A DNA stretch of 48,083 nucleotides from a virus. A model generated the notes under the pieces. It did not search any database. It had not been told where the DNA came from and saw nothing but the letters and a program-made list of their open reading frames with translations. Both the position numbers and the translations under genes were made by a program. Below are positions 3,186-40,210 of the stretch, piece by piece (position 1 is the stretch's first letter; the number at the start of each line of letters is the position of its first letter). Location: IMG/VR virus record IMGVR_UViG_3300020469_000075, positions 1-48,083 of that record. One strand, given 5' to 3'.

Positions 3186-5240
3186 TTAAAGGTCTTGAAA
3201 GACGCCGCCAGAATTAAAGTAACGAGGATTTCGTTTAGTTCCAGTTCCGAAAATAAACAGTCCATTACTTTTATCATTTGGTCCACCAAGCTGAGCGTTA
3301 AAAGTCAAATCAACAGTCTTGTTGTCTCCAATTGAAGAGCTGTAGTTTTCACTTTCTAGTCTAGCTCCTGCTATAATATAAACCAATTTCTTCGCTGCCG
3401 TCGGTTTTGTGCATCGAGGGTCTTTTGGCTCATTAAGCGCAATAGCTAAGTTGCAAGTAGGATTAGTGTAAAGTCTTTCGATTAAGTTAGCTTCCTCGAG
3501 TTCAGAAAGAATTGCGTTAACCGAAACCGACATGGTTACTGGAAAGTCAATTGATCTTCCAAATCCAAACTGGTTACCAAGTCTTTGAATTACGCTTCTT
3601 CCAATTGGGCAACTAAGCGAAAAGCTTTGAATATGAGATGCTCCTTCTCCATGTATATCAGCGAGAAGAGAGCTTTCTGTTGCCTCGCCAAGGTACAATT
3701 CAATATCTCCGGGGCGAAGTGCAGAAATTTCTCCAGTTTCATTATCTTCTACAGCTGCGGGAAGCTCAAAATACTCATCACAAATCATTAATCCATCGTT
3801 ACCTGCAGTTTTTCCTTCTGTGTCAACAGCTGGAATTCTGATTCCTTCTGAGCTTGCACTACCAATGCTGTCACTCTTAATGTTAAAACCTTCAACTGTA
3901 AGACTTGCTGTTGGTAAACTTCCTACTGCTGCTTCGATAGAATAATCGGTTATGTAACCATTTCCTACAGAAATAACACTTTTATCTTCGTCAGCAGCAA
4001 CAGTTCCTACAGCATCATCTCCCTCTGGAACCGTAAGCACAAAATAGTTATTTCCATCTTTGGAATCTTCGCTTGAATGCCATTGAAAAGCCGAAGTTGC
4101 TGTAGATAAAGCTGTAGTTATATCAGCGGAACCAAGTGTAGTCGAAGGAAGGGTGGAAGCGTCGTTAGTATTGAAGCCTAGCAGTCTTTCATTTTCTCCA
4201 TTTGTTAACAAGTAACTAAAGTCTAATCCAACCGTTGGAGCTTCAAGAACAAGACTGTCAATTCTTCCAAGTTGACCAAATTGATTAACGTCTGTACGAT
4301 TAATTGTAAAATTATAATTTGCAGTTTGAACACGACTAAGTTGTGCTACTACTGTTTCTGCGTCTGTACCAGCGGCAACAGTTGCGATAGAAAAGATTTG
4401 CAACTCTTCTTCTACGTCTTCTAGCCCGGCTGTGCTATCATCAATTTCAAATTGTTTAAGAAATCTTACGATTTCACCAGCGGTGGTTGCGTATCCATTT
4501 CCGGGGTTACTAACAGTCACTTCAGTAATATAACCAACTTCTTCCGTTACTTCTTCCCAGTTTGCAGAAGTTCCGGGCAAGTTTGCAGATGCTACTCCAG
4601 CGCCAATAAATACTGGTGACAAAGTTCCTGCACCACCGGCGCCAAGATTAATTCTTTTCCAAATTTTACCATCATATTTAACAATTGGAATGTCACCTAC
4701 ATCTTTTCCGTAATCAAATTGACCATCTACATTTGCTGGGTATTCCCATAATGCAGCTGTATTTAAGTCATCTGCTCCACCGCCACCGTTAACTGCTGGT
4801 GACCAGTCGGCCGCTGTAGTAGGATCACTTCCAACAGCTGCGCCAGCAGCATTAGTAACAATATATAGAGCAAGAGCCCCACCAGTTTCAAAAGTAACTA
4901 TTTCTCCAATTCCATATGCTTTTGTTGCATCATAAAGGTCAGCTCCTCCGTAGCAATCTTGATCTACTTTACTGACCTCTACAACTCCACCTTGTCCGGC
5001 GGCAGATACAGTTGTTACACTTTGATCTCCAACCTTCCATACAGGATAAAAGCTTTCGGAGGTTTGCGCCCGAACTGTACCCTTAGTAGCAGGGATCGTT
5101 AATGTTTCTATTCCATCAGTAGAAGCCGGAGTGGCCTTACTTGACAAACCCGTATTTCCCGGGCTCTTAAAGTGGAAAGATGTCGAATTTGGGCTTACAA
5201 ACAAAGCCTCACTTTGATAAATTACTCTATTGCGTGCCAT
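3186..5240 (-). CDS. Major tail tube protein with inserted CBM5/12-like modules
   Basis: This 684-aa protein shares its core with the 426-aa neighbour, and with two tail proteins downstream of the tape measure (blocks VGNGYITDYSIEAAVGSLP, RSVIQRLGNQF, SIGDNKTVDLTF). Residues about 101-150 read like a ChtBD3/CBM5/12 module: an aromatic start, AYGIGEIVTF, an aromatic, then SDPTTAADW. Residues about 164-231 look like a second, looser copy ending in TSANWEEV. The core fits the fold shared by siphovirus tube proteins, and the position between a terminator candidate and a paralogue fits gpV of lambda. At 684 residues it is far longer than the usual 150-300, the excess being inserts that would sit on the outside of the tail. 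The gene appears less AT-rich than its neighbours. It starts 106 bp after the upstream gene, the longest gap in the block, and is followed by the UUCG hairpin. High expression is inferred. Confidence 0.72.
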   Translation of the reverse strand: MARNRVIYQSEALFVSPNSTSFHFKSPGNTGLSSKATPASTDGIETLTIPATKGTVRAQTSESFYPVWKVGDQSVTTVSAAGQGGVVEVSKVDQDCYGGADLYDATKAYGIGEIVTFETGGALALYIVTNAAGAAVGSDPTTAADWSPAVNGGGGADDLNTAALWEYPANVDGQFDYGKDVGDIPIVKYDGKIWKRINLGAGGAGTLSPVFIGAGVASANLPGTSANWEEVTEEVGYITEVTVSNPGNGYATTAGEIVRFLKQFEIDDSTAGLEDVEEELQIFSIATVAAGTDAETVVAQLSRVQTANYNFTINRTDVNQFGQLGRIDSLVLEAPTVGLDFSYLLTNGENERLLGFNTNDASTLPSTTLGSADITTALSTATSAFQWHSSEDSKDGNNYFVLTVPEGDDAVGTVAADEDKSVISVGNGYITDYSIEAAVGSLPTASLTVEGFNIKSDSIGSASSEGIRIPAVDTEGKTAGNDGLMICDEYFELPAAVEDNETGEISALRPGDIELYLGEATESSLLADIHGEGASHIQSFSLSCPIGRSVIQRLGNQFGFGRSIDFPVTMSVSVNAILSELEEANLIERLYTNPTCNLAIALNEPKDPRCTKPTAAKKLVYIIAGARLESENYSSSIGDNKTVDLTFNAQLGGPNDKSNGLFIFGTGTKRNPRYFNSGGVFQDL
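4548..4940 (-). other. Tandem CBM5/12-like modules inside the tail tube protein
   Basis: These positions encode residues about 101-231 of the tube protein. Both modules follow the pattern aromatic - Y/F - G-D/E-(I/V)-V - aromatic - P - W seen in chitin-binding type 3 modules. The first is clear; the second is looser (WEYP ... DVGDIPIVKYDGKIW ... SANW). Confidence 0.5.
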
Positions 5241-5346
5241 TTTATTTTCTTGATTAGGTTATAAAAGGTTGGATTGTTTGAATTTACAAGAAATATATCT
5301 TTATGGGAAAGTTTTTTTTCTTTTTTTTTAAATTTTTTATAATCTT
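5241..5346 (-). promoter_or_regulatory. Candidate promoter region of the tail tube gene
   Basis: The longest intergenic stretch of the leftward block. Read on the minus strand it begins with long A-tracts (5311-5340) resembling an UP element. It then offers TTGTAA (5289-5284) and, 17 bp on, TTTTAT (5266-5261), overlapping TATAAC (5263-5258). A weak AAGAAA ribosome site precedes the ATG. The sequence is AT-rich, so chance matches are likely and the call is tentative. A dedicated promoter would explain separate high expression of the tube protein. Confidence 0.3.
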
Positions 5347-22003: not shown

Positions 22004-23995
22004 ATGAGTATTCGTTCTAGCTTGGGCTCTTATGAGCAAAGAGTATTAATCAACAATACTTTCATACCCGGCGTAATAAGTTTTGACGCTTCTTACCAAA
22101 CTTCAGAAGCTCCTGTAAATGCGATTGGAAAAGGTTATGCTCAAAGTTTAATTGAATCTCCTCCTGCTGGAGCATTCAGCATGACAAGAAACCTTATTTA
22201 TACTGATCCGTTAATAAATTTTACAGGAGACAACCCAATGAAAATAAGAGTGGTCTATCCTGATGGTAATAATATTGGAGACGCTTCATTAGACATAAAA
22301 GATGCTTATATGGGAGAATATTCAATCAGCTGCTCAGTCGGAGATTTGCCTAAAATATCAACTACTTTTGATGTTTATGATGACATGGGATCTACTATAT
22401 TTTTTGATGATAATTACATAGATCCAAATTTTTTAAATACCTCTGTCTGGAATAACGAGTCAGTAGAAATTAATCCTGATACTAACGGATTTCCTGCCGA
22501 AAGCCCTCGAGGATTAGCAGAAGCAACTGTAATAAAATTTGGAGATCATTCGGCTGGAAATTCTAGAATAAAAGCAAATCTTTCTGAAGTTAATCTTCAA
22601 GATTCTTTTCTTTTAAGTTTTCAAGTTAAGCCTATAACAAGTCCGGCAGCGAGCATTCTTTCTGTTTATTTAACTGGTTGCGAAGTTGGATCAAAAGGAA
22701 GAAAAGACATTAATTTAACTCAATTAACACAAGGTGAATGGACAAAAGTTAGCGTAGAATTAATCAGGGATCAGACTGATGGTACAAGCGCAAATCCTTA
22801 TTTAAATATAGAAGGCACTCCAGATTTAAAACTTTCATTATTTAATTTTAATTTTATTAAAACTCAAGAATTAGAATTTTCAGAAGAAGAAGTTATTCCG
22901 AATATGGGTAGTATTCATGTTTCTTGCGATGGTAGTGAAACTAATTCTGTCACAAACTTCAATTATTCTATAAACATAAACCGAAAACCTTTTTATGTTA
23001 TCGGCGACCTCCAGCCAAAAGAAATAGAAACAATATATCCGTTTGCTATTTCTGCAGATTTTACAATGGAGTTAAATGATTACCAAGTCAGAAATATGAA
23101 GGATGTATTTACTGGCAGAAGAGAAAGAGATATTAATATACAAATAAAAGGTAAGCAAAATACTACTAATGGAGAGGCTGTTTTTCCTCACATAACAGAC
23201 ACCATGAGTAGATCTGACAGTAGGCCTTTTAATGCTTTACTTAATGGATTGACTTCCAAAGATTCTACAAATCTTTTTGGTGACACAAACTATGGCGGTA
23301 GGCCAATTGCAATAACACCCAGCTCTCCAGCTAAAGGATTTAATGTATGGAGAGTTTTTAAAGAACCTAATTTTGCAAATGACAGGAACTTTCTAGTTGG
23401 CGTTATAGGCAGGTCAATTAGTAGTTATTTTGGCTTTGGAACGCCTTATACATTTTCTACATATGCATGGGTACCAAGTTTTATGAATGCAAATAACTCT
23501 TTTCAACAAATGTTTGCAGGTCAATATGATAGTTCTTCATTGACCACTATAGAACAAATACTAGTCAGGGTTGGAACTCCCGATGTAATAGATATATCAG
23601 ATCCTTCAAGCCTAAATCCAATAAACAACTCAGACTTGGAGTTTTGGCAAAGACCCTCTATAAGTTTTACTCCTTTAGCCCAGTATTCTAACACTCACCC
23701 AGATTTTTTTGTTATTTATTCTATTGACCTTCCTGACACTCTTGACGCCTATATAAACCTTTCTGCTTTGCAGATTGAAAACTCATCAAGACCTTCTTCT
23801 CTTGGAGAAGATACAATTTTTAATCTTCCAGTAACAAATGCTGAACTTGTTGGTGAAACTTTTGGCGGAGACTCAAATGATGGATCAGTTGTTAATTTAT
23901 CATATAAAGGTTATATAAACAAACCTCCATCAAGATGCGTCAGTGCTGGGGCTGAAGTAGAAAGTTTTAAAGATATCGATTGGGACGCAGTATGA
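22004..23995 (+). CDS. Tube-fold distal tail protein with jelly-roll inserts (first of two)
   Basis: Chosen start: ATG at 22004, 5 bp after the tape measure stop, giving 663 aa (MSIRSSLGSYEQ...); an upstream TTG in frame at 21947 is less likely. The core repeats blocks of the tube proteins: AYMGEYSISCSVGDLP (101 on), NINRKPFYVIGDL (about 320) and a final block AELVGETFGGDSNDG. Between the blocks lie two beta inserts, about 130-290 and 400-610, that look like CBM4/9-type jelly rolls (for example GEWTKVSVELIRD and FSTYAWVP). It sits where siphoviruses encode the distal tail protein that joins tube to tip, and distal tail proteins are known to share the tube fold. It overlaps the next gene by 4 bp. 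Confidence 0.65.
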   Translation: MSIRSSLGSYEQRVLINNTFIPGVISFDASYQTSEAPVNAIGKGYAQSLIESPPAGAFSMTRNLIYTDPLINFTGDNPMKIRVVYPDGNNIGDASLDIKDAYMGEYSISCSVGDLPKISTTFDVYDDMGSTIFFDDNYIDPNFLNTSVWNNESVEINPDTNGFPAESPRGLAEATVIKFGDHSAGNSRIKANLSEVNLQDSFLLSFQVKPITSPAASILSVYLTGCEVGSKGRKDINLTQLTQGEWTKVSVELIRDQTDGTSANPYLNIEGTPDLKLSLFNFNFIKTQELEFSEEEVIPNMGSIHVSCDGSETNSVTNFNYSININRKPFYVIGDLQPKEIETIYPFAISADFTMELNDYQVRNMKDVFTGRRERDINIQIKGKQNTTNGEAVFPHITDTMSRSDSRPFNALLNGLTSKDSTNLFGDTNYGGRPIAITPSSPAKGFNVWRVFKEPNFANDRNFLVGVIGRSISSYFGFGTPYTFSTYAWVPSFMNANNSFQQMFAGQYDSSSLTTIEQILVRVGTPDVIDISDPSSLNPINNSDLEFWQRPSISFTPLAQYSNTHPDFFVIYSIDLPDTLDAYINLSALQIENSSRPSSLGEDTIFNLPVTNAELVGETFGGDSNDGSVVNLSYKGYINKPPSRCVSAGAEVESFKDIDWDAV

Positions 23996-26349
23996 ATTAT
24001 ATCAATTATAGTGAATGTATTGTTACCTTAAATAATCGTCGGGTTTTTGCTACAAAAGCATCAGTTTCGGTTAGCAATAATGTGCAAGGCACTAGGAATA
24101 TTGATTCCACTCCTCATAGGCAAGTTATGTCTAGCCCAATACAAGGTAAGCTAGATTTAGACTTTTATATCACAGATGAATTTGAAGATTTAAATCCAAT
24201 GAGAATTTCAAATTGTTCTGTGGAAAACAATATAGTTAGAAACTCTAATTTTAATAGTTCCAGAAAAAATCCTATCATAAATGAATACGAACGAAGCTCT
24301 CAATATCCTAGAGGTAACTACGGAGAGTTTTTCTCAAATAATCAAATGCTTTCGGGTTGGAATTTTAAAACCAGTCATGAGTCTATAGAAGTAAAAGTTG
24401 GCCTACCTGAATTTAAGGAAGGTGGAGCAAACTACGAAGGGCATGGAATAGGAAACGGTTCTTCTTTGGTAATAATAAATAAAAAAGACGACTACCCTGA
24501 TTGGGATAGCGAAGAAGATTACCAAGAAAAAGATATAGTTAAATTTGGTTTAAATTCATGGAGCAGTCGGTCATACAATAAAAACTCCATGCCTCAAGTA
24601 GGCCTTGACTGGGAAATTTATCCAAAAAAATGGAACCCTGATGAAAGATATCTAATTGCAGATATCGTATCTTATAATAATATTCACTGGAGATCTAAAA
24701 AATTAAATATAAACAAAACACCTGAGATTGGGGAATACTGGAGTAAATACCATAGCTTGCTCGGCGCTGGCGCTGCAGAAATTTCTCAGAAAGACATTTT
24801 TGAGGTTAATGAAAAGTATATGGTGGAAATTGTTGCTAAGTCTAAAATTGGATTTATGAATACAGCCATTAGAGTAAATGATGCAAACGAAGTTGGTATT
24901 TTATCAGATCAATATCAAACTTATTTATTTGAAGTTACATCTACTAGCAAAGACTTAAGGTTTCAATTTAAAGGAGATGATTTTTTTGGTCAAACAGTTT
25001 ATATTGGATCAGTTAAAGCATATCTTAAGAAAGGAGATAGTTTTCATGATGGGTTTTCTGGATCTATTGGAGCCCTAACTTTTAGCGACGCCTATATGAC
25101 AAAATTTTCTTTTTCAGCAAGACCTTTTTCTCCAATCTTAGCTAGTGCATCATTCGATATATATGGGCCTGTCTCAGGCCAGCCTTCAAGAGATAGTTTT
25201 TGCGAAGGAAATTCAAATTTTCATAATAACGGAATACTTAATGTAAATGACAATGAGGAAATTTTTGACTCTAAAATTCCCCACTCCGCAAAAAGTTTAT
25301 TTTACTCCCTTACTGACGTTGGTATATCAGATAGCCTTGAGTTTTCATATAATCTTTCCATAGGCAGAAAGGCCAGTCACCAAATTGGAGATTTATTCCC
25401 TCGCAGCGTTTCTAGGGGCAGTAGTTCTGTTTCTATGACTCTCAGGGGAGAAGGATTAAGAGATGCACTATCGTTTAACGGTAATGACGCATCTATCTCA
25501 ATCTCTTTATTCGATATGTCTGGCAAAAAAATTCAATCTCCAAGCGAAGGTTTCCTAATCGATTTTGACGCTTCTGGCGAAGAAAAAATAAACGCTTTAA
25601 TAGATGGATCATATTCTTTTATTGATAGCGATAGTTCTAAAGTTTTTAATAGTGGAATTGCATTCAAAGAAGAATCATCCATCTTTTCTTCAGGAGATTC
25701 TATAAAGATAACAGACTTTGCTGCAGGAGATTTAGATTTAGCAATCTCAGGAGACTTAACGCTAGAGTGTCTTTTCAAAATCAGTGACTTCAACATTCCC
25801 TCAGGATGGGTCAGGGTTGCAGGCAGGGGCGGAAACATAACAAGAACTTATGGTATTTGGTATAATTTCCCTCTTCAAGTTTTTCTTTTTGAACAATTTG
25901 GTACAGATGGAAGCCGAGTGTATACTTGGACTAATCGACCTGACCACGATCTTGACTTAGACAGTAGTTTGTCGCAAGATCCTTTAGACAATTCTCATAT
26001 AAGAACTGATACTTGGTATCATTTAACTGCAATAAGAAACGCGGCGCAAAACAACTTGTACATAAATGGTAAATTGGCCGCTTCTTCCTCCAATGAAGGA
26101 ATATCGCCATGGACTAATTATGGTTCTGGAGAAGAATTTACTTTAGGCACTTGTGGATTTCCTGATACTTTTAGTCATATAGGAGAAATTTCTACTTGCA
26201 GATTATATAATAGATCATTATCAGAACAAGAAATAAAAAAGAATTTTACAAACTTTTCGTGCGATGGAAAAATTATTAGTCAAGACCTTTCTGTTTCTGC
26301 AGGAGATGTTCTTCAAGGGTCTATAACGGTTGAACAGGAATTAATATAA
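23992..26349 (+). CDS. Tube-fold distal tail protein with CBM5/12-like pair and LamG insert (second of two)
   Basis: Chosen start: ATG at 23992, overlapping the previous stop (ATGA), giving 785 aa. It is related to the preceding protein and to the tube proteins: SDAYMTKFSFSARPFSPILA (about 365), LSIGRKASHQIGDLFPRSV (about 455) and a last block DLSVSAGDVLQGSITVEQEL. An N-terminal jelly roll (about 80-350) is itself interrupted at about 169-256 by two CBM5/12-like modules (DWDSEEDYQEKDIVKFG and KWNPDERYLIADIVSYN, each ending in W). Residues about 554-753 form a LamG/concanavalin-type domain (TWYHLTAIRN, NLYINGKLAAS, CRLYNRSLSEQEIKKNF) placed just before the last core strand. This nested architecture points to a glycan-facing tail collar or baseplate protein. 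Binding specificity cannot be read from the sequence. Confidence 0.65.
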   Translation: MNYINYSECIVTLNNRRVFATKASVSVSNNVQGTRNIDSTPHRQVMSSPIQGKLDLDFYITDEFEDLNPMRISNCSVENNIVRNSNFNSSRKNPIINEYERSSQYPRGNYGEFFSNNQMLSGWNFKTSHESIEVKVGLPEFKEGGANYEGHGIGNGSSLVIINKKDDYPDWDSEEDYQEKDIVKFGLNSWSSRSYNKNSMPQVGLDWEIYPKKWNPDERYLIADIVSYNNIHWRSKKLNINKTPEIGEYWSKYHSLLGAGAAEISQKDIFEVNEKYMVEIVAKSKIGFMNTAIRVNDANEVGILSDQYQTYLFEVTSTSKDLRFQFKGDDFFGQTVYIGSVKAYLKKGDSFHDGFSGSIGALTFSDAYMTKFSFSARPFSPILASASFDIYGPVSGQPSRDSFCEGNSNFHNNGILNVNDNEEIFDSKIPHSAKSLFYSLTDVGISDSLEFSYNLSIGRKASHQIGDLFPRSVSRGSSSVSMTLRGEGLRDALSFNGNDASISISLFDMSGKKIQSPSEGFLIDFDASGEEKINALIDGSYSFIDSDSSKVFNSGIAFKEESSIFSSGDSIKITDFAAGDLDLAISGDLTLECLFKISDFNIPSGWVRVAGRGGNITRTYGIWYNFPLQVFLFEQFGTDGSRVYTWTNRPDHDLDLDSSLSQDPLDNSHIRTDTWYHLTAIRNAAQNNLYINGKLAASSSNEGISPWTNYGSGEEFTLGTCGFPDTFSHIGEISTCRLYNRSLSEQEIKKNFTNFSCDGKIISQDLSVSAGDVLQGSITVEQELI
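24498..24759 (+). other. Tandem CBM5/12-like modules in the second distal tail protein
   Basis: Two adjacent modules of about 43 residues, each with W-x4-6-Y-x3-D-I-V-x-(F/Y), an aromatic (W/H), a P, and a closing W. They are inserted in a jelly-roll domain. They fit the ChtBD3 pattern better than any other instance in the window. Confidence 0.65.
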
Positions 26350-29300
26350 TGAGTTATAGTACTACAGACTCAAATTTAAATATTTCTACAGCAAATTGGT
26401 CTGAAGGTATTAGCTATAAAAAATATGATATAGTAAATGGGTCAAATATATCTGTTTTCAATAGTTCTTCAAGTCAATTATTTATACCTTCTACTAACTT
26501 TATTGTGGCAGATTCTTTCGTTCGCATAAAATCAGGTGTTTCTAAGGTTGTAGGATACAGCAAACCTTTTCTAATGAAAGACTTATCTACTGGTTATTGT
26601 CTTTCATTTTCTACTTGGTCGACAAGACCAAGCAATGCAGCCAACCAACCTTTAGTTCAAGATGGTGCCCCCTCTAGACTTTCAGATCCTTCAACTTGCC
26701 AATCAATAAAAGTAGAACTCGAAATACTTAGTTTTAGTCAGACGCCCATCCAACCAAATATTGAAAAAAATATATTAATTTCAATAAATGAATATGCAAA
26801 GACTCCAGCTCGAGACGCTTCTAGCGCAATAAAAGTTAGTCAGGTTTTTACTGCAGAATATTTTCAGCCAAACTCAAGAGTTTATAATGGTACCTACAAT
26901 CAAACTGGAGGAATTTTTGGAAGAATTAAATTGACAAAATCTTCTTCAGAAGATGGTTCATTTGCCGAATATTATTTTGACCGCTTTTCTTTGTCTCAAC
27001 TTGACGAGCACGAAAATGATTTATACTTTTATTCTATGGAGGAGCATATGTCGGACTCTAATAACTCTCCCTTCTTTCATATGGGAGGAGATGGTTTGGA
27101 TAGCGACGCTTTTTTAAACATTCAGCCTAACAGCTCTATAGGTGGGCAAAAAATATCTTTATTATCTTCTGATAATTGGCTCACGAATGGATCACCAAAT
27201 TTTAAAAGTTTATATGATGGTAGATCTGTTTGCTTAATGAATTCAACAAGTGATACTCCCTGTTCAATATCTTCTACAATGAAAGACCTAGTTGTCGGTC
27301 AAGAGTATAGAGTAGACTTATCTTTAAACCCTGTAAGAGAGTCTAAAACGTCTTACTCTAATTGGTCTGCCGGGGAACCAAATAATTGGGGAGGTGCTCA
27401 AGACTTTGCTTACATTTTGAAAAAACCGGGGGTTAATGCCGGGACTTGGGATGACGGGGGTGGCGGTGAATTTGCTCAGGCTACGGACTTGTCAATCCCT
27501 AAGGCTGCAGGTTTTATTGTTCAACACGGAGGGCCTTATTCTTCTAACTATGAAGCAGTTCTTTTTCAGGATTCAGATGAGCGGTCATGGGCTAATGCTA
27601 GAAATTTAGCTAGATCAAACAACTATACATCAGATCTAGCTGTAGTTCTCGTTCCAGAACAGCAAACTGCATTTGAAAGTCTTGTTAGCACTTTAAATTT
27701 CGAATACAATGAGTATTACTTTTGGATTGGGTTAACAGATACTCCTTCGGATATAACAAAAGGTTTTTGCGAAGATGGAATAACTATTAATCCATCTGGA
27801 TCATGGATGTGGATCGAAGGAACGCCTCACTCTTCTTCTACAGGATTGTCTAGAGACGCAGAAAAATTCTCAAATTCTCCGTACGGAGCGAATATAAAAG
27901 TTTACGGAGAAAACTATATAGAATCCGATCCAACAACTTATGTTGTTCATCATGAAGGTCTTAAGCCCGGAGATTTCACTTTTTATTTTACTGCAGAAAG
28001 TGAAAGCCTAAATATCTCTATAGATTCAATACAGCCCCCTTCTACCGCTGGAATATTTGAAGAGAATAATACTTCTTTACTAGAACTCCCATCTACAACA
28101 GTTTTTGGAGACAACGTTTTTATTGAAAATTGTATTCAATTAAATCATATTATAGTCAGCAAAGAAATGTCTTTATGGACAAGGCACTTTACGCCAAATC
28201 CATCTTACGGCTCGAGCATTAGGCTAAGCGCTAATAATTCTGAATTAATTTTTGGAGATGGCTATAGTGAAATTAGGCCAAAAAACCTTAACTCTGTATT
28301 GATGGAGGCAGATCTTAGTTTTCAAAATAGGGGTAATTTAGAAACAAAAGCTATAATTCATTTTCTTGAAAATACTCAAGGTTACAAAAAATTAAAATAC
28401 CGAGCACCCGCACCTTTTAACAAACTTCAATCTTTTACGTGTGATTCTTTTAGTCATACTTATAACGATTATGATGATAATTCTCTTTCTGTAAAGCTTG
28501 TGAAAGACGATGGGTTTATCTTAAACAGATTCAACGATTTTTTGATGCCCCATCCGGGAAACTGGAAAGATTCTAGTAATTATTTTGAAAATGACATAGT
28601 AATTCATCAAAGTAAAAGCGCTGACGGTTCGATAAGCTCTCCAACTACTAGATCATTTTTCTATGCTTTTTCGGAAAACAAAAACAATGACCCTTTATTC
28701 TCTAGTACAACTTGGACTAAGAATCATTTTTTTTGGGTTCCATCTCAAAACAATACATTTAATAGAGAATCAAGAAAGCATAGCATATCTATGGAAAATG
28801 ATTTCGTTGGAAGGTCTAGTGACGGAACATTTCCAAATCTTTTAGAACTTGATTTAGTTTTTGATGCTCGAACTGACTTTGAAGCCAGATCTATTATGCA
28901 TTTTCTTACAAATAAAATGGGGCACATCCCATTTTTATTTAACTTACCAGAGCCTTACAGCAACTTAAAGACTGAGCCCTTGAGAGATTCTCTTGGAAAA
29001 GTTCCTAAAATATCAGCTTCTGCGGCGGAAGTTTCAGTAAAAGGGTCTGAAACTACACTGCTTCTAGAAAACCCTTTAATGACTCCTTCGGGTTCTGCAA
29101 ATCCCGGGCATGAGCTTTTGTTAAAAAATCAAGTTATAACCGTGCCCAGCTTACCTTCTAGTAAAAATAAATTTTATATATCCAAGCCTATGCAAATAAA
29201 TGGTGCAACTCAACTAAATGTTCATAATCCTTTTTACTCAGTAGAGGATATTGGAGGTAGAGAGATCAATATCCATGTTCAACAAAAAGCTTTTTACTGT

Positions 29301-29456
29301 GACCAATGGTCGATAAACTACAAATCTTTTAACAACAATTCTGTTAGAGCTGTTTTTAAAGAAATAGCTATTGCTCCTACTCTCATATCCGAATTTATTG
29401 ACATAACAATTGGTGAAGATGAGACTAATCAATATATAGATCTTTCCTCTTATTAA
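26349..29456 (+). CDS. Lambda gpM-like minor tail protein with inserted, apparently permuted C-type lectin
   Basis: A 1035-aa protein whose ATG overlaps the previous stop by 1 bp. Residues about 610-715 resemble lambda gpM (LIFGDGYSEIRPKNLNSVL, a run ending in HFLENTQGYKKLKYRAPAPF). A second gpM-like half lies at 800-870 and is completed near 980-1020, so the module is duplicated. Residues about 320-580 form a jelly roll interrupted by C-type-lectin sequence: SNWSAGEPNNWGG (EPN 343-345) and TWDDGG (367) come first, followed by SWANARNLA (413), WIGL (459) and WMWIEG (486). In normal C-type lectins the order is the reverse. CBM5/12-like stretches lie near 15-50 (weak) and 738-800 (better). The gene sits in the lambda M position, before L. 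A tip role with sugar recognition is likely. Confidence 0.7.
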   Translation: MSYSTTDSNLNISTANWSEGISYKKYDIVNGSNISVFNSSSSQLFIPSTNFIVADSFVRIKSGVSKVVGYSKPFLMKDLSTGYCLSFSTWSTRPSNAANQPLVQDGAPSRLSDPSTCQSIKVELEILSFSQTPIQPNIEKNILISINEYAKTPARDASSAIKVSQVFTAEYFQPNSRVYNGTYNQTGGIFGRIKLTKSSSEDGSFAEYYFDRFSLSQLDEHENDLYFYSMEEHMSDSNNSPFFHMGGDGLDSDAFLNIQPNSSIGGQKISLLSSDNWLTNGSPNFKSLYDGRSVCLMNSTSDTPCSISSTMKDLVVGQEYRVDLSLNPVRESKTSYSNWSAGEPNNWGGAQDFAYILKKPGVNAGTWDDGGGGEFAQATDLSIPKAAGFIVQHGGPYSSNYEAVLFQDSDERSWANARNLARSNNYTSDLAVVLVPEQQTAFESLVSTLNFEYNEYYFWIGLTDTPSDITKGFCEDGITINPSGSWMWIEGTPHSSSTGLSRDAEKFSNSPYGANIKVYGENYIESDPTTYVVHHEGLKPGDFTFYFTAESESLNISIDSIQPPSTAGIFEENNTSLLELPSTTVFGDNVFIENCIQLNHIIVSKEMSLWTRHFTPNPSYGSSIRLSANNSELIFGDGYSEIRPKNLNSVLMEADLSFQNRGNLETKAIIHFLENTQGYKKLKYRAPAPFNKLQSFTCDSFSHTYNDYDDNSLSVKLVKDDGFILNRFNDFLMPHPGNWKDSSNYFENDIVIHQSKSADGSISSPTTRSFFYAFSENKNNDPLFSSTTWTKNHFFWVPSQNNTFNRESRKHSISMENDFVGRSSDGTFPNLLELDLVFDARTDFEARSIMHFLTNKMGHIPFLFNLPEPYSNLKTEPLRDSLGKVPKISASAAEVSVKGSETTLLLENPLMTPSGSANPGHELLLKNQVITVPSLPSSKNKFYISKPMQINGATQLNVHNPFYSVEDIGGREINIHVQQKAFYCDQWSINYKSFNNNSVRAVFKEIAIAPTLISEFIDITIGEDETNQYIDLSSY

Positions 29457-29469: not shown

Positions 29470-32205
29470 ATGGCAAATGTAAGAAAATCAAAGGGATATG
29501 TCGATACTGTTGATTTTGGCAGCGTCACCTTTGGCTATGAATTTTCTGGCACAATTCCATTTAATAATTCTTCTAATATTCCTTTAAAATTAACTGCATT
29601 AATAGAAGGCTCAGATGCAAGTTTTTTTTCAATAGAAGGTGATCAGGTATTTCAAGTTTTTATTCCCGCAAGATCAACCTATAATCTGCCAATATCTTTT
29701 CTTCCAAATGCCGCTAGATCATTTTCCTCTACAGTTAAGTGTTCATTTAATAACTCGACTGTAAAAATTAATGGATCCGATTTTCATTCCATAGAATTAA
29801 AAGGTCAAGGCAATACAAGCCTTCCAACTAAACCGTCTTTCACCCTTAAACTTGACGAATACCCGTTTGATTCTAGAAATATAATTACAAATATAACTCT
29901 TCGTCAAGATGTAGATCGGTATGAAATTTATTATTCTCTTACCCCTGCATCAACACTTATAAAAGCAGAAGAGTATAATGGAATTTCAAGCGAATTTATT
30001 TTTTTAGGTTTAGATTTTGATACTGAATATCATATTTTAGTGCGGGCATTTAATATTCATGGCTCCACAGATTCTGATAGAATTATGATTAAAACTAAAA
30101 TTCACACTTTAAATTTAGAAATAGGAGGCATAGTTCCTAATTTAAATGTTTATGATAAAGTTCTCGGTCAAGGCAGTGATATTTATTACTACAATGATGT
30201 TGCTCTTACAATATTACAATCTTCTATTATTTACTGTGACAAATGTAATACCGCAGATGAGCGTGCTTTTAATAAAGGTTTACCATACAGATACGAAACT
30301 ACCTATACTCCCTCTATGCCTGATATGCCATCTTTTTCTCAGGCTAAACCAGCCCTGTCAACTGGCCCAAAAATAATGGACCAGACAAGGCAATTGCCTC
30401 TTAAAATTGATATTTATGGCCAAGTGCTTGGCTCTGGAGGAACTGGCGGAAACGGAGGCGGACAGAATGTTATTAACTCTACATATATTTCCCCACCTAA
30501 TTTAGTAAGAACAGAGGGTCTCTCATCATCTTTTGATTCCACTGGCCAAAAACCGGGTATTACAGGCCCGCAATTTTTGGAAGGTGGAGATGCAATCAGT
30601 ATAGAATATGATTGTGAGCTTAATATCCACGCTACAGGCAAAGTCAAAGGTGGCGGAGGCGGAGGTTATGGAGGAGGTCCTTCTTTTCATACTGGTTACG
30701 GCGGAGCATACGACGAAGAAACACCCGGCTATGGAGACGATGCAATGGCATTTAATGTTGCCGCATCTAGGATATCAAATCCAATAAATGGACAATATAC
30801 CCCAACTCATTACCACGGCAGAAGGGGAGATTCTAGCAATACAGAAATGCTAAATTGGATTAATAATGGAAAACTTTCATCAAAGAGTATTGACTCGGCT
30901 TGGCACTTAATTGATCACGGTGCGCAAAGAGTGGCTGACGATGACGATCAAACAACTAAAGATCATATAGACTTCTTTAATCAAACTGCCACTTCTTGGT
31001 CTGATGTTTGGAAAGGTGGTACCGCTTTAAACTCCACAAATCCAGATGGTAGCACACCTTCTAGGTCAAATATATTTCTAGGCGGAGGCGGCGGGGGAGG
31101 TGGGCAAGGTTTCTCTGCGGGAGATGGCGGCAAAGCTGGCAGCTGTTCTCTTTCTAGAGAACGAAGTCATCAAACTGGAAACCAAGGTGGTAATGTTGCA
31201 TACGGACATACCGGCCAAGTTTTGCAAGGATCAATGCCTTTTCAAAGAGGAGACAATGCCACAAGAGATGTTCCGGGCGGACCCAGTCAGCATTACAAAA
31301 GCGCGTTGTACCGTATACAAAGCGAAGGAATGAGTGCAGATGCGTTAAGGGCAAGAGGTCCTTATCCCTCTGAGGATGGAGAAAGGCAAAGATTTGGTCA
31401 AGGCCTTTGGTCTTTTTATGTATATGTGCATGTAAAAAAACGTAGGTGGAGAAGAAGAGTTCGTACTCGCTCTCACTTTAGGACTGGTAGGGCTATCATG
31501 GATATTAGGGGTGGAGCTGGAGGTTCTTATGGATTATACGGAGAAGAAAGGCCTGCGGACTCTTTTTTTTGCGCAGGTGGAACTTCTGACATGAATAAAA
31601 TAAGCGCCGATAATACATATCGAGACACAAGAAACCTAGGCAAAGATAATTTTTTTAGAGGTTACGTAAAAACTGATATTGCCGTAGATAATGTTATGGC
31701 TTCAAATCCTTTTAAATCAAGAGCTGATATCTGGAATATTTTTAACTTTAAATATCTTGGTTCTGATAAAATAGCAATTTACGCTTTTGGCTCACAACTT
31801 TCTATTGATGTTTCGAAAACTTTCGAACATAGTTTTTCTACATCTTTTTCTACCGCAATTTTTATGGACAAAAACGCAGCCAGCCCGGGTTATTGGAATC
31901 AACCTAGCATAATTAAAAAACCTACATCAAAACTCACCAATCCTTGCAGTCTTCAATTCGCAAGCGAAACTTTTTCTTCTTATTCCATAAATGACACAGG
32001 AATAATAGGAACTATCAAGCCTCACGGATTCCCCGGCAAAGCAATAGTTTTAAATGGCAATAACGTGTCAGGCTCTGGCTGGACTATAGGATGCCATAAT
32101 GATGATCGAATTGCTGGGCTAGTGGTTCCCGGCAGAGTCCCTAGACTAAATAAAAGAACTGTTTCGGGTGAAGTTTACAATAGAGAATATAGGAGCTTCT
32201 TCTAA
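29470..32205 (+). CDS. Adhesin-like tail protein: ASH-like and Fn3 domains plus glycine-rich sandwich
   Basis: A 911-aa protein. Residues about 1-120 resemble an ASH/choice-of-anchor-D domain (VDFGSVTFG, FNNSSNIPLKL, a Gly-rich end LKGQG). Residues about 121-215 resemble fibronectin type III (YEIYYSL and FDTEYHILVRAFN). After about 310 the chain becomes glycine-rich (SGGTGGNGGGQ, GGGGGGYGGGPS, GGGGGGGGQGFSAGDGG, GGAGGSYG) with variable loops between, as in polyglycine-II sandwich adhesins such as T-even gp38-type proteins. A very basic patch (VKKRRWRRRVRTRSHFR) lies near 655-670. The gene is inserted between the M-like and L-like genes, which lambda lacks. Receptor binding is inferred. Polyglycine-II packing is a guess from composition. 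Confidence 0.55.
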   Translation: MANVRKSKGYVDTVDFGSVTFGYEFSGTIPFNNSSNIPLKLTALIEGSDASFFSIEGDQVFQVFIPARSTYNLPISFLPNAARSFSSTVKCSFNNSTVKINGSDFHSIELKGQGNTSLPTKPSFTLKLDEYPFDSRNIITNITLRQDVDRYEIYYSLTPASTLIKAEEYNGISSEFIFLGLDFDTEYHILVRAFNIHGSTDSDRIMIKTKIHTLNLEIGGIVPNLNVYDKVLGQGSDIYYYNDVALTILQSSIIYCDKCNTADERAFNKGLPYRYETTYTPSMPDMPSFSQAKPALSTGPKIMDQTRQLPLKIDIYGQVLGSGGTGGNGGGQNVINSTYISPPNLVRTEGLSSSFDSTGQKPGITGPQFLEGGDAISIEYDCELNIHATGKVKGGGGGGYGGGPSFHTGYGGAYDEETPGYGDDAMAFNVAASRISNPINGQYTPTHYHGRRGDSSNTEMLNWINNGKLSSKSIDSAWHLIDHGAQRVADDDDQTTKDHIDFFNQTATSWSDVWKGGTALNSTNPDGSTPSRSNIFLGGGGGGGGQGFSAGDGGKAGSCSLSRERSHQTGNQGGNVAYGHTGQVLQGSMPFQRGDNATRDVPGGPSQHYKSALYRIQSEGMSADALRARGPYPSEDGERQRFGQGLWSFYVYVHVKKRRWRRRVRTRSHFRTGRAIMDIRGGAGGSYGLYGEERPADSFFCAGGTSDMNKISADNTYRDTRNLGKDNFFRGYVKTDIAVDNVMASNPFKSRADIWNIFNFKYLGSDKIAIYAFGSQLSIDVSKTFEHSFSTSFSTAIFMDKNAASPGYWNQPSIIKKPTSKLTNPCSLQFASETFSSYSINDTGIIGTIKPHGFPGKAIVLNGNNVSGSGWTIGCHNDDRIAGLVVPGRVPRLNKRTVSGEVYNREYRSFF

Positions 32206-33311
32206 TGGCAGAAACATTTTCAGCAGAAACATTAAAAATTAACGCATCACTTTTTGACTTTAATCCAGATACGCTTGTGGAGTTTTATGAAGTTAGAGTG
32301 AAAAGAACCGACACTATAAACCAAATAGATACGTTCCGCTTCCATGCTGGAATTAATCAAGAAGGCATAAGCAAAGAAGGTGGCGAAAAAGTATATGGGG
32401 TTAAATGGCAAGGAAATGTATACATTTCAGTTCCACTAGAAACCGAGTCTTTCGAAGCAAGAGGTGACGGCAGGCTACCTAGGCCATTAATAAGATTTGC
32501 AAACATAGAAGGTTTTTTCTCTGCGGCGGCAAGAGAATATGGAGACTTTGTAGGAGCTAAGGTAATACGCAAAAGAACTTTTGCAAAATATCTAGATTCA
32601 GAAAATTGGCCAAAAGTTGATGGTAAACATATGAATCCATTATCTGCGACAGGAGAAGGAGATGCTAATTCACATCTTCCAGATGATATGTTTTTTGTAA
32701 ATAGAAAGCTTTCTGAGAATAAAAATCTTTTAGAATATGAGCTAGTTTCACTACTTGAGCTTGAAGGAGTTTATCTTCCTGCAAGAATTGTGCTTTCTAA
32801 TTATTGTTCTTGGGTATATCGCAGTCCTGAGTGCGGATACGGCCACAATCACTCTTCTCAGGTTGAGCAGGTCCGCTCAGGCCTTCCTGTTGCAGATAGA
32901 GAGGATAACTTACTTGCCGAAGCTTGGACTAACATAGGAACTAATAATCAAAAAAGATCTTTTTCTTCTGAAACTTCTCGGCTTTGGAAGTCTGGCAGAA
33001 ACTACAAAAAGAATGATTTTATTTTTTTAACCTCGGGCAAAAGACTTGACGGAAGAGACGACCCCACCCAAACTTCATACTTGCTCCGCATGTTTTATGT
33101 TTGTAAAGAAGATCATGTAGCCAGCTTAGAGACACACCCTTTTTATAATAAAGAACTTTGGGTTCAAGACCAATGTTCTAAAACGGTTCATGGTTGCAAA
33201 CTTAGGCATGACCCTAAGAACACTAACGAAAACCCTGATAATAGAGATGAGGCTGATAGGCCCCCATTACCTTTTGGTGGTTTTCCATCTACAGATAGAT
33301 ATAGTTTCTAA
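32205..33311 (+). CDS. L: Lambda gpL-like minor tail protein (Fe-S tip protein) with CBM5/12-like insert
   Basis: A 368-aa protein starting on the A of the previous TAA. The match to lambda gpL is strong: RPLIRFANIEGFF, an acid-rich FVGAKVIRKRTFAKYLD, LPARIVLSNYCSWVYRSPEC, and QCSKTVHGCKLRHDPKN with a PFGGFPS end. Lambda gpL binds a [4Fe-4S] cluster through C-terminal cysteines; the four expected cysteines are here at 201, 210, 324 and 331. Between the two Cys pairs a segment of about 65 residues (259-320) reads as a CBM5/12-like module (WKSGRNYKKNDFIFL, closing in ELWVQDQC) and contributes an extra Cys at 300. The protein is longer than lambda gpL (232 aa) mainly because of this insert. Role: tail-tip assembly between the tape measure end and J. 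Confidence 0.88.
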   Translation: MAETFSAETLKINASLFDFNPDTLVEFYEVRVKRTDTINQIDTFRFHAGINQEGISKEGGEKVYGVKWQGNVYISVPLETESFEARGDGRLPRPLIRFANIEGFFSAAAREYGDFVGAKVIRKRTFAKYLDSENWPKVDGKHMNPLSATGEGDANSHLPDDMFFVNRKLSENKNLLEYELVSLLELEGVYLPARIVLSNYCSWVYRSPECGYGHNHSSQVEQVRSGLPVADREDNLLAEAWTNIGTNNQKRSFSSETSRLWKSGRNYKKNDFIFLTSGKRLDGRDDPTQTSYLLRMFYVCKEDHVASLETHPFYNKELWVQDQCSKTVHGCKLRHDPKNTNENPDNRDEADRPPLPFGGFPSTDRYSF

Positions 33312-35088: not shown

Positions 35089-37274
35089 ACGTAAAATTAC
35101 ATGGCATGTTAGCTCAAAGATTTGGAGATAATTTTTTCTTAAATGTAGATTCTATATCTGAAGCAATTAGAGCAATTCAAGCAAATACGGGAACTTTTTA
35201 TGACTTCTTAAAGAAAAAAGATGCAGAAGGTATTTGTTACAAAGTCGTGATTGGTAAAGACGCTCTGCAGGATGGCATATCTGCAGAAGAGCTTTCGTTA
35301 AAAAGAGGTCTTTTTGGGAAAACGATTAACATTATTCCCGTTCCTCAAGGAGCAGAAAATTTACAGGCAATACTTAATATAATTATTGGTTTAGTTTTGG
35401 TTGTGGCCGGATTCATGACCGGAAATCCTTTTCTTGTTATTGCTGGCGCCATGATGATTATTGGCGGTATAATGCAACTGATAACAAAACCTCCTAAACC
35501 TCCTGCTCCCGGGAGAACTCCATCCAGAGTTACCACGCAGTCTTTCGAATTTAGTGGTCCTACATCTACAATGAAACAGGGTGTGCCAGTTAAGCTAGGC
35601 TATGGTCAATTAAAAATTGGATCAAATGTATTGTCTACTGCATATAGGAGCACTTCTTATTTTTCAGAATACGATGCTTCAACTTCTTCAGGCGGTGCAA
35701 ATTTTCTTCCCGGAGCTGGCGACTTAACCCATGCAACCCCCGTAAATTGGAGTGAAAAGCCTCCTAGATATGGGAATGTAGCTGGGATAATAGATTCCAA
35801 TCAAAAAGGAAATACTGCTGATGAACATTCTGCTCCAGAAACCCCTCCCGGTGGCCCCCTTATGTTCCCAACTTGGAGCGCTTATCTTACCGGCTTATCA
35901 ACAATGTTTGATTTAAGAGAAATCGGAGGCGCTCTGTATTTTGTTGATAAAGACGGAAACAAGGTTGATGAAAATCTTAGAGTTGCATCAGACACGCCAA
36001 CCGAAAAAGAAAAAGCAATTCAAAATTGGTTAAACTCTCGAGGGTTCACATCTTCTGGAAATTCTATTCCTGCTTATGAATCTGGATCACCAATAACGTT
36101 AGGTGGAGATAAAGTTTCAAGATCCGGCCCTTCTTCTTCTGCTCTTATGGCAAGAAGTCTAGTGGTCTCATACGATCAAACTGATGCAGATTCAGACAGA
36201 GAAACCAGCTCGTATAACTCTGTATCATTCCGCTGGTCTCCTCCCTCTACCACCACCGTAAAAGTTTCAAAATATCATGTCAAAATATATCCAATAATTC
36301 AATACCAATATATATTAGCTTTTAACGAAGAAACTGCTAGTCCGGGAGCCAAAGAATTAGACCTTCCTGAGACAGCAATATTCTACGAGTTTGATTTTGT
36401 TCAAAACAATTTAGATCACAAACCCGGGGAACAAGTAAGTCAAGAAGTTCTAACTGCAAAAGAATTTTATGATATAGCTAATCGCACGGAAGAAATTGGA
36501 CTTGCTTATAATGATAGCAAAGATTATTCTTGGATGATAAAAGACACTCTAGATCATTCAAGCATAACAAAAAGTATTGATGATATGCAATGCAACGTTA
36601 ATTATTTTTCGAAAGAATCGACATCTACATCATTAACTCTTGATGACGCAGATCCAATAACACAATGGATGAATCTTAATCCCTCGAAAGTCCAAGATCC
36701 TTATAGTGAAGTCAGAATTATTTTAGTTGGAGACAATAGCGGGCAACATGGAGCCCGAGAAAGGTATATCAGTAAGCAAACTGAAAAAGATGACACCATC
36801 GGTCCAGACGTGACAACGAAGACGGTACTTAGCCCGCGGTCGCACGAAGTAGAAGTAGAAGACACAAATGGCGTTTTCTGCGATAATGTATTACTAATAA
36901 ATGTAACTTCTGCCGAAGCTTTTGATAATTCTGGAACTAAAAAATCTTCTCATTACAGACCCTCTAAATATGATAGAGAAGTTGACCGTGAGCCGGATAG
37001 CGATACTGAAAATTATTCTTTATACGACCTTCTTGATGACGAAAATAACGCTGCCTCATCTGAATTACAATTACAAGAAAGCACTTGGTATGATACCTCT
37101 AGAAATTTTAAAATTTATATGGATGCAAGATTTATGGTGGCATTTTCTCTTGAAGTAGAATTTGAAGACGGCACAAAATCTCCTGCCTCAAATACGGTTA
37201 TGGAAAATTCAGAAATTATGCCTGTCAGAAGCTCTGCTGAAAACGACTCTTCAACAATCACATTATCGTCATGA
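35085..37274 (+). CDS. Lambda gpI-like tail assembly protein, second copy with long C-terminal extension
   Basis: Chosen start: ATG at 35085, overlapping the first copy's stop (ATGA), giving 729 aa; upstream in-frame starts would lie inside the first copy. Residues 1-190 align with the first copy over their whole length: VKLHGMLAQRFGDNF, ISEAIRAIQANTGTFYDFL, the hydrophobic hairpin at about 95-134 (IIIGLVLVVAGFM) and KQGVPVKLGYG. After about 200 the protein diverges and contains beta-rich segments, including a possible Fn3-like part around 370-420 (SVSFRWSPPSTTTVKVSKYHV). This extension is not known to me from gpI. The pair may form a heteromer, or the second copy may have become a structural tip protein. 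It overlaps the J gene by 4 bp. Confidence 0.75.
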   Translation: MNVKLHGMLAQRFGDNFFLNVDSISEAIRAIQANTGTFYDFLKKKDAEGICYKVVIGKDALQDGISAEELSLKRGLFGKTINIIPVPQGAENLQAILNIIIGLVLVVAGFMTGNPFLVIAGAMMIIGGIMQLITKPPKPPAPGRTPSRVTTQSFEFSGPTSTMKQGVPVKLGYGQLKIGSNVLSTAYRSTSYFSEYDASTSSGGANFLPGAGDLTHATPVNWSEKPPRYGNVAGIIDSNQKGNTADEHSAPETPPGGPLMFPTWSAYLTGLSTMFDLREIGGALYFVDKDGNKVDENLRVASDTPTEKEKAIQNWLNSRGFTSSGNSIPAYESGSPITLGGDKVSRSGPSSSALMARSLVVSYDQTDADSDRETSSYNSVSFRWSPPSTTTVKVSKYHVKIYPIIQYQYILAFNEETASPGAKELDLPETAIFYEFDFVQNNLDHKPGEQVSQEVLTAKEFYDIANRTEEIGLAYNDSKDYSWMIKDTLDHSSITKSIDDMQCNVNYFSKESTSTSLTLDDADPITQWMNLNPSKVQDPYSEVRIILVGDNSGQHGARERYISKQTEKDDTIGPDVTTKTVLSPRSHEVEVEDTNGVFCDNVLLINVTSAEAFDNSGTKKSSHYRPSKYDREVDREPDSDTENYSLYDLLDDENNAASSELQLQESTWYDTSRNFKIYMDARFMVAFSLEVEFEDGTKSPASNTVMENSEIMPVRSSAENDSSTITLSS

Positions 37275-40210
37275 CTAAAAAATTAGAATCCACCGCAAAT
37301 TTAATTGTTGTCGATCTTTTGTCAGAAGGAGAGATCGCTGGCCTTGTAGACCAAAACGGAGATTTAGTTTCCGGCAGAAATCGTCCCGGCAGAAAAGGTT
37401 ATGTAGATTCCTCCGGGCTACTTCAAGGCGCGTACGATAAAAGTTCTGGCCCAATTTTAGATGAAACAAATTCTTCTGCAAATCCATTTCGATACAAAGG
37501 AATTTTTCTAAATGATACTCCCGTAATAACCACTCCAAAAGGGCCTGCCTCACTAGGTAGAGAGCAAGTAAATTTTCGTAGATTTTATTCGGAAATTAGA
37601 TTTGGACACCAAGAGCAAGAGCCATTCAATTTACTTGGGTCTCAGAATACAATTTCGAAAGGCGAAAATCTCATTGGCCCTCTGGCAAGCTCTTTCGACC
37701 GCCAAGACCAGCTTTCTGAAAGCTCTAATTCGGTATACCATACCATAACTAACATAAATGTAACCGAAGTTATTGTTACCGTAAACATACCTCAATTATA
37801 TAAAGTTGAAAGTGTTCACGAAGAAACCCTCGGAGACATGAAAGATTCCGAAATAGAATTTTTTATCGAATATGGAATTGAAGGAGAGCCTTTAAGAAAC
37901 TACAGAGGCGACCATGTTCCCGACGCATATTCCCTCGGCAGCTCTCCCATTAAAATTAAAGGGATAGCTACAAGCCCATATTTTGTTGATTTCTTAATAA
38001 GAATTGGTGACCTTAATTACGATTCTGGTATAGCGGGTAAATCCATTCAAGGTTTAGAAAACCCTTATAAAAAAAATAGAGTTATTAAGTTAACTAGAGC
38101 TACAAGAGAAAAGGATCCAGAAGAAGAAGCTACTGAGGGCGATGATACCGCAGACCACAATAGAAGCATTAGGTGGCAGGCCGTTGTAGAAGTTGTTCCA
38201 GAAAACTTTAATTATGGAAACTCTGTAGTTGTTGCGTCTCAATTTGACGCAAGATATTTTGACAGAATTCCTGAGCGAAGCTTTAATTGCAAGCTCATGA
38301 AGATTCCAGTACCATCAAATTACGATCCTGAATCCAGAAGATATAAAGGACATTGGGATGGAACTTTTTCAACCGAAAAATATTTATGGGAAAACGGACA
38401 AACAGGGAAGTATTGGACAAACAATCCTGCTTGGATATTTTACGATATAATGACCAACAGGAGATATGGCGTTGCTAAATTTCTTGATCCAGATTTTGAT
38501 CCTTCAGCTCAAGTAGACAAGTGGAATCTTTATGAAATATCAAAAATTTGTGACGAAATTGTACTAACAGGAACGAGCCCGAGATACGGCTGGTCGGAAT
38601 TACAAACATTTAAAAATAAACTAAAGGCTGGTTCAAATAATTACATTGAACTAAATGTCGTTGAAAATAGTGACGACGCCGATTTAGTTAAAAAATTTGG
38701 AAACTCAAATGAGGGTGGATCTCCAAACATGCTAGATTATGCAGGTCAAGAAATTGTAATTAAGACTTGTGATAATAACATATATAAAAGAAAGATTGTT
38801 TCTAGCTCTCATGAACGAACTGCTAAATCAGGAGGTTGGCAACATGTGTTTAAGTTAACAATAGATGGAGGAATATTAGAAAATGAATTTGAAAACGAAG
38901 AAGTTTGTGCCGAAGCTGGAGTAAAATTTACAGGAGACTACGAAGTAGCCGAACCCAGATTTGCATGTAATGTAGTTATCCAAGATAAACAAGAAGCAGT
39001 GCAGGTTTTAAACGAACTTGCCTCTGTTTTTCGAGGCATGCTTTACTATGCTAATGGAATGACTTTCTTGACTACGGATGTAAAAAGAGAGCCCGTTACT
39101 CTTTTTACAAATGCTAATACTAAAGAAGGTAATTTTAGTTATAGCGGCAGTTCTAAAACATCAAGAAAATCTGTCGTTCTTGTCAGATACAATGATGTAT
39201 TTGACGGTTACAGACCAAAGATAGAATATGTCGAAGATGCCGATGCAATTAATAAATTTGGTTATCAAGAAGATGAAGTTATTGCTTTTGGTTGCACATC
39301 TAGAGGTCAAGCCAGAAGATTAGGAGAGTGGGTCTTACTTACAAATCAACTCGAAAGAGAGGCAATTAATTTTAGTACGGGACTTGAAGCTTCATTCCTT
39401 AAGCCGGGAGACATATTTAAAGTTATCGACAAAAATCGAACTATAAAGAGATTTGGAGGAAGGGTTAAAGACGTGGAATCTGATGGCGCAAGCATAGCAG
39501 AAATAACCTTAGATTCTAAAATTCAAGATAAACTTTCTCATAAAAAAATAACTATTATCACTCCAAAAAAGAATGAAAATGTAGAGACTTTAAATGCTAA
39601 AGCTGCTTCTTCTGGGGGCATATCTATTGAGGAAATTGCAAACTCTCACGAAGCTCAAATTACTACATTTGAATTTGATCCTGCATCTGATTTGTCAGAG
39701 ATTATTGAAATTAATAAAGACAAAGTAAAATTAAATCCAAATGCAAAAATAACTAGAATGACAATGGGAGAAATGCAGCATGGAAGATTTCCGGAGTGGA
39801 ATAGCTCTTCTAAATATCTTACTGGCATGAAAGTTAAATATAAAAGTTTGTACTGGGTAGCTACAGAAGCAAACGATGCTTCGATTCCTTTTGATGGCGC
39901 TGGATCATCTTGGGAAAGGTATCAAGCTTTTGATATTCACAGTATATTACTTGAAATACCAGTCGGCTCTATTTGGATAATGGAATCAGAGGATGCAGAC
40001 ATTAGCGTTCAAAGTTATTTGTACAGAACTTTAAGAGTATCTGAAAAAGCTATTGGAGAATTTGAAATTAATGGTTTAGAGTATGTACCTAATAAATTTG
40101 ACGTTATTGAAAAAGGTGCAAAATTAGAAAAGGTAAAACCTTTGCCTGCGTATAGTTACTATGGGTCTTTGCCTAATGCGTCTTTAGGAATAGAGATTGG
40201 AAATAGTTAG
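37271..40210 (+). CDS. J: Lambda gpJ-like central tail tip protein (host specificity), core only
   Basis: A 979-aa protein with very clear gpJ features in order: LLSEGEIAGLVD, IFLNDTPVITT, VPSNYDPESRRYKGHWDGTF, NPAWIFYDIMTNRRYGVAKF, DKWNLYEISKICDEIV, YANGMTFLTTDVKREP, FGCTSRGQARRLGEWVL, NFSTGLEASFLKPGDIFKV and a final LEYVPNKFDVIEKG. Between DEIV (about 437) and EPRFACN (about 565) sits an extra segment of roughly 120 residues. Near 841-887 a CBM5/12-like module (EWNSSSKYLTGMKVKYKSLYW ... SSWERY) is inserted. The chain stops where lambda gpJ passes into its Fn3/fibre half; that half seems to be carried by the next gene. Role: trimeric tip linking the tube to receptor binding. Confidence 0.92.
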   Translation: MTKKLESTANLIVVDLLSEGEIAGLVDQNGDLVSGRNRPGRKGYVDSSGLLQGAYDKSSGPILDETNSSANPFRYKGIFLNDTPVITTPKGPASLGREQVNFRRFYSEIRFGHQEQEPFNLLGSQNTISKGENLIGPLASSFDRQDQLSESSNSVYHTITNINVTEVIVTVNIPQLYKVESVHEETLGDMKDSEIEFFIEYGIEGEPLRNYRGDHVPDAYSLGSSPIKIKGIATSPYFVDFLIRIGDLNYDSGIAGKSIQGLENPYKKNRVIKLTRATREKDPEEEATEGDDTADHNRSIRWQAVVEVVPENFNYGNSVVVASQFDARYFDRIPERSFNCKLMKIPVPSNYDPESRRYKGHWDGTFSTEKYLWENGQTGKYWTNNPAWIFYDIMTNRRYGVAKFLDPDFDPSAQVDKWNLYEISKICDEIVLTGTSPRYGWSELQTFKNKLKAGSNNYIELNVVENSDDADLVKKFGNSNEGGSPNMLDYAGQEIVIKTCDNNIYKRKIVSSSHERTAKSGGWQHVFKLTIDGGILENEFENEEVCAEAGVKFTGDYEVAEPRFACNVVIQDKQEAVQVLNELASVFRGMLYYANGMTFLTTDVKREPVTLFTNANTKEGNFSYSGSSKTSRKSVVLVRYNDVFDGYRPKIEYVEDADAINKFGYQEDEVIAFGCTSRGQARRLGEWVLLTNQLEREAINFSTGLEASFLKPGDIFKVIDKNRTIKRFGGRVKDVESDGASIAEITLDSKIQDKLSHKKITIITPKKNENVETLNAKAASSGGISIEEIANSHEAQITTFEFDPASDLSEIIEINKDKVKLNPNAKITRMTMGEMQHGRFPEWNSSSKYLTGMKVKYKSLYWVATEANDASIPFDGAGSSWERYQAFDIHSILLEIPVGSIWIMESEDADISVQSYLYRTLRVSEKAIGEFEINGLEYVPNKFDVIEKGAKLEKVKPLPAYSYYGSLPNASLGIEIGNS

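Follow-up and report, generated by a model that had tools for sequence, protein, structure and literature searches.

The window analysed here is an IMG/VR virus record of 48,083 bases and contains a siphovirus-type tail gene cluster. The tail genes run from a putative tube protein and its paralogue tube2 (both on the minus strand) through the tape measure (4142 aa), dit1, dit2, a gpM-like protein and a glycine-rich protein to gpL, gpK (JAB and NlpC/P60 domains), two gpI-like proteins and J (PF13550). Gene order is part of the basis for calling these proteins tube, tape measure and dit. An open-ended protein with GGSVSGGGTYD-type repeat units (1-1818, minus strand) adjoins the tube genes. The closest relatives of the window are G001, at around 90% protein identity, and L003 and G003, at around 50-75%; a wider group of IMG/VR contigs has gpL and gpM in common with the window at around 30-35% identity. 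When isolate phages were searched by tblastn with dit2, gpM and tube, nothing matched. The source phage is probably marine, and matches to the modules described below come from cyanophages and marine single-cell viruses. G003 was deposited within a metagenome-assembled genome named Halobacteriovorax; since the binning of phage contigs is unreliable, this host is a lead only.

Four tip proteins, dit2, gpM, gpL and J, carry CBM5/12 modules, either in insertions or between their core domains. The first-pass annotation had named these sites, and all four proved real, with slightly shifted coordinates. The dit2 gene (23980-26349) encodes the second distal-tail-like protein; neither Pfam nor PHROG gave a Dit match and its identity as a Dit comes from gene order alone. 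It carries two adjoining modules, a (residues 172-216; 24493-24627, plus strand) and b (residues 217-259; 24628-24756, plus strand). Module a was identified by alignment, by leave-one-out profiles, by Pfam in an orthologue and by a three-stranded sheet in the AF2 model; module b scores 16 bits against PF02839 in the window itself and matches the fold of chitinase domains. The AF2 model of the pair (mean pLDDT 75.6) consists of two three-stranded sheets, which superimpose on the chitin-binding domains of chitinase C, chitinase B and 2d49 with 0.9-1.5 Å over 42-46 columns. This match was not built into the model, because the underlying alignment held phage sequences only. A further match, to chitin deacetylases, covers the two modules together; its overall rmsd is poor (10 Å), which we attribute to the inter-module orientation. 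Foldseek also related the modelled pair to adhesion parts of phages Milano (8fqc), 7-7-1 (9rkv) and A-1(L) (8kec). Matches from the structure and PDB profile searches further include the Anabaena injection-system baseplate protein 7b5h and the PDB chain 9wwa, named 'adaptor protein'. The pair (about 97 residues) is present in the window and in G001; in G003 a few residues stand in its place between conserved flanks, and this length comparison identifies the pair as an insertion, as had been proposed. A distal-tail-like protein with a CBM in a loop, beside a relative that has none, has the make-up of an evolved Dit. A Laminin_G_3 domain lies further downstream in dit2 (25897-26238).

In the gpM-like protein (26349-29456) a CBM5/12-like module at residues 736-798 (28554-28742, plus strand) is flanked by two PF05939 (Phage_min_tail) stretches. 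It was recovered by leave-one-out profiles (p 0.0003), aligned with a CBM5/12 reference by hhalign at 1.6e-7, and is kept in all 16 distinct aligned sequences of the wider group. A second candidate at the gpM N-terminus, residues 13-52 (26385-26504, plus strand), had already been described as the weaker of the two, and in the window it is indeed weak (p 0.02-0.03). The homologous segment scores clearly in the longer gpM proteins of L159, L161 and L163 (18.9 bits and p 0.0002 in L161), and we therefore regard the window site as a decayed module. Between the two sites lies a C-type lectin domain (27582-27833), for which Lectin_C exceeds the cut-off together with its neighbours. We note that the gpM-like gene of G003 has one in-frame stop (L011:4930-4932) that parts open stretches 3886-4929 and 4933-7041.

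The gpL gene (32205-33311) matches PF05100 with an E-value of 9.8e-41, and its four cysteines are invariant in alignments A5 and A6, placing the protein in the lambda gpL family. The first cysteine pair, C201 and C210 (32805-32834, plus strand), and the second, C324 and C331 (33174-33197, plus strand), flank a CBM5/12-like module at residues 258-323 (32976-33173, plus strand). An earlier profile left gpL at noise level, so this module rests on the better alignment and its leave-one-out profile, on hhalign (1.8e-6) and on relatives: it is kept in 20 of 20 distinct aligned loops of the wider group and about 30 further loci carry it. An AF2 model of full-length gpL, built from 23 sequences after two belonging to annotated phage records had been excluded, was good in the core; the insert and the C-terminus had pLDDT below 50 and are uninformative.

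The loop between the cysteine pairs was compared across 80 gpL loci, 78 of which could be parsed. Because these loci were chosen as the top matches of a single query, the proportion with inserts is not a frequency. The loop is about 20 residues long in 45 of the 78, whereas the window's group has 96-111 residues and the other long-loop loci 105-318, which bears out the claim of an insertion in gpL. Fifteen of the 78 (among them L042, L049, L053, L055, L065, L081, L098 and L104) hold inserts of about 290-318 residues whose DGN repeats are characteristic of B_lectin; Pfam matches to B_lectin in L042 (1.3e-5) and L049 (1.4e-5) both fall below the cut-off. Other inserts occupy the same loop in L061, L062, L085, L070 and S-CBS4 (L025). 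The B_lectin-like inserts thus share their insertion point with the CBM5/12 module but are far longer (about 290 residues) and of mannose-lectin type. A motif scan of the 80 loci for further modules found one, located not in the loop but at the gpL N-terminus of L057 (L057:2543-3472); modules of this kind are present in many other proteins of phages. Judged from these alignments, the inter-cysteine loop of gpL is a recurrent insertion site.

The J-like gene (37271-40210) encodes a CBM5/12 module at residues 840-887 (39788-39931, plus strand), after the Phage-tail_3 core, identified by alignment, leave-one-out profiles and its G003 orthologue. In relatives the fibre encoded after J, of 2250-2405 residues, bears some four to five CBM5/12-like modules in a row (L122:2155-8904, minus strand; L123:5894-13108, plus strand; L121:10046-16825, plus strand). 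The J proteins of G001 and G003 (L014:16815-20000 and L011:15009-19442) also contain an insert, about 470-500 residues long, with no counterpart in the window J. It falls at gpJ residue ~522, near 38834 in the window, and by eye it looks more like beta-rich binding domains than an intein.

The modules of dit2, J, gpM and gpL have the pattern W...Y..GD.V...P...W (alignments A4 and A9). In A4, which aligns six modules, four positions never vary (W, Y, P, W), and the final Trp is invariant in A9 as well. A strict form of the motif, drawn up after the hits had been seen, was counted 4 times in the proteome of the window, whereas shuffled proteomes averaged 0.007. Leave-one-protein-out profiles recovered the modules of all four proteins in the window and in relatives, each with p ≤ 0.0003; none of 3000 shuffles of the same segment reached the real score. 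An earlier run on a poorer alignment had already picked out the dit2, J and gpM modules of relatives. A profile of 16 modules, all from phages, retrieved the chitin oligosaccharide deacetylase 3wx7 from the PDB (E 5e-8) together with the chitinases 2rts, 2d49 and 1ed7 (E 0.005-0.025). The gathering score of Pfam CBM_5_12 (PF02839) is 26.2. The window's own copies all lie below it, the best being the dit2 pair at 23.4 bits, and direct Pfam searches of the gpM, gpL and tube segments gave no CBM_5_12 match; the orthologous modules of G001 dit2 (31.0 bits) and G003 J (28.6 bits) pass. The HMM search proposed with the original assignment to CBM5/12 (ChtBD3) thus succeeds in orthologues of the dit2 pair and of the J module and falls short in the window, and the proposed structure prediction supports the family fold for the dit2 pair and is silent on the gpL insert. 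For the dit2 pair and J the family assignment is carried by the Pfam cut-off in orthologues and the PDB profile search, with the predicted fold in addition for the pair; for gpM and gpL it is carried by profile-profile comparison and leave-one-out recovery. On this comparative evidence the modules in the four tip proteins belong to CBM5/12.

The enzyme-borne CBM5/12 modules of chitinases and chitin oligosaccharide deacetylases share this pattern, and the dit2 pair also shares their three-stranded fold as predicted, whereas the modules here are carried by phage structural proteins. The gpL and gpM copies differ further from those of chitinases in having long inserts in the middle hairpin. AKWWT is the motif of CBM5; by eye it is absent from the phage modules in A4. 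The last Trp of the phage modules is presumably the counterpart of the chitin-contacting Trp in chitinase A1.

The fifth protein of the first-pass annotation is encoded at 3186-5240 (minus strand) and is a putative tail tube, so called from gene order and its tandem paralogue. It has an N-terminal insert of about 240 residues (roughly residues 37-283; 4392-5132, minus strand), missing from the G004 homologue and from tube2, which holds both sites of a proposed module pair (4548-4940). At the first (4791-4949, minus strand) a marginal CBM5/12-like half-motif was found; its p value is about 0.025 for the window and 0.0003-0.0008 for G001, where it also scores 13 bits against PF02839, and only its 17-25 initial residues match the full-length profile. 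The second (4539-4757) gained no support from profile comparisons. A comparison of the tube family with PDB sequences gave nothing meaningful. We also considered common ancestry of the tube and distal-tail proteins and rejected it; clear paralogy is confined to tube and tube2.

The modules differ in age. Since the gpL and gpM copies are kept across the wider phage clade, they are old, fixed parts of the tip. The dit2 pair, the J copy and the fibre copies are not the same in all relatives and may adjust the host range. Modular shuffling of one module type, as first suggested, therefore describes the dit2 pair, which is a clean indel, and does not describe the gpL and gpM modules.

We favour, with a probability of roughly 0.6, a tip decorated with CBM5/12 modules on dit2 (two), gpM, gpL and J that serves reversible attachment to envelope glycans. 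The modules would project from loops or lie between core domains and, the tip being multimeric, would form a dense, low-affinity, multivalent patch. The ligand could be a host-envelope polysaccharide with GlcNAc or related sugars, and a reversible first attachment would be followed by commitment through the receptor-binding fibre. This reading is favoured by analogy, because multi-site tail decoration is known, and partly demonstrated, elsewhere: in 936 phages, a CBM of the tail and another of the neck each bound to host cells when fused to GFP (PMC6669499).

The alternative that survives best, although we consider it rather unlikely, is a structural one: the CBM5/12 folds would have been recruited as spacers or clamps between tip subunits and would not bind sugar. 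Fixation of the gpL and gpM copies throughout the clade is what an assembly part would show, and the family also occurs in the injection-system baseplate protein and the PDB 'adaptor protein', neither of which is known here as a sugar binder. The carbohydrate-binding module on the neck fibre of cyanophage A-1(L), moreover, did not bind its host (PMC10966104). Spacers would not, however, readily account for the dispensability of the dit2 pair in G003, the invariance of the final Trp in A4 and A9, or the multiplication of modules in the fibre of relatives. Other sugar-binding-type domains also occur on the same tip (Laminin_G_3 in dit2, C-type lectin in gpM) and, in other phages, in the same gpL loop.

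The original proposal went further, placing modules on tube, collar and tip so that the whole tail could become a multivalent sugar-binding rod, assembled on this reading by recent shuffling of one module. The large insert of the putative tube, with its marginal half-motif and its absence from homologue and paralogue, is what speaks for such a rod. The second tube site is unsupported, collar proteins yielded no module, and the copies in gpL and gpM are old and have been inherited vertically; a rod is thus improbable, and we reduce the claim to a decorated tip and the count of five proteins to four, with the tube marginal. That the aromatic motif arose by chance or convergence is suggested by little more than the shortness of the modules (about 45 residues) and their sub-threshold Pfam scores in the window, and for dit2, J, gpM and gpL this very improbable explanation is contradicted by leave-one-out recovery, PDB retrieval, the fold match and conservation in relatives, though it could still apply to the tube.

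Decoration of tails is itself an established strategy; what is new is the CBM5/12 arrangement at a lambda-type tip. The 936 phages carry CBMs on the neck, a tail protein and the Dit (PMC6669499), and evolved Dits and Tals have been reviewed (PMC7291167). As in the decorated tip proposed here, sugar-binding modules in these lactococcal phages occupy loops of distal-tail and tail proteins at several sites per virion (PMC6669499, PMC7291167), but they are mostly BppA-type CBMs of phages with Gram-positive hosts, whereas here CBM5/12 modules are found in lambda-type gpM, gpL and J. A marine siphophage, roseophage R4C, likewise has more than one accessory domain of carbohydrate-binding type, distributed over its Dit, megatron, hub and fibre (PMC10276861); these are of differing domain types (e.g. 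CBM11-like), in contrast to the one repeated CBM5/12 module here. The folds of Milano, 7-7-1 and A-1(L) that resemble the modelled dit2 pair belong to receptor-binding complex or fibre proteins and not to gpL, gpM or J. The decorated tip would extend sugar-binding tail decoration to these three proteins, in an uncultured and probably marine phage group.

The gpL inter-cysteine loop would be one precise place at which phages have repeatedly inserted domains of sugar-binding type. An insert there could serve as a sequence marker for glycan-dependent adsorption and offers a defined site at which to address early reversible attachment. In relatives of lambda gpL the cysteines hold an iron-sulfur cluster (Tam et al. 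2013, as cited in PMC13243795). It is a speculative and doubtful extension that the loop acts as a general sugar-sensor socket, in which unrelated sugar-binding domains (CBM5/12 or B_lectin-like) lie between putative cluster ligands and glycan engagement could couple to the cluster and to opening of the tip.

Near the end of the tail cluster a small protein (45143-45607) matches an H-type lectin at 22.0 against a cut-off of 24. It is followed by two adjoining, related (paralogous) proteins (45607-46725 and 46722-47807), the first of which is a DUF2827 member (4e-58).
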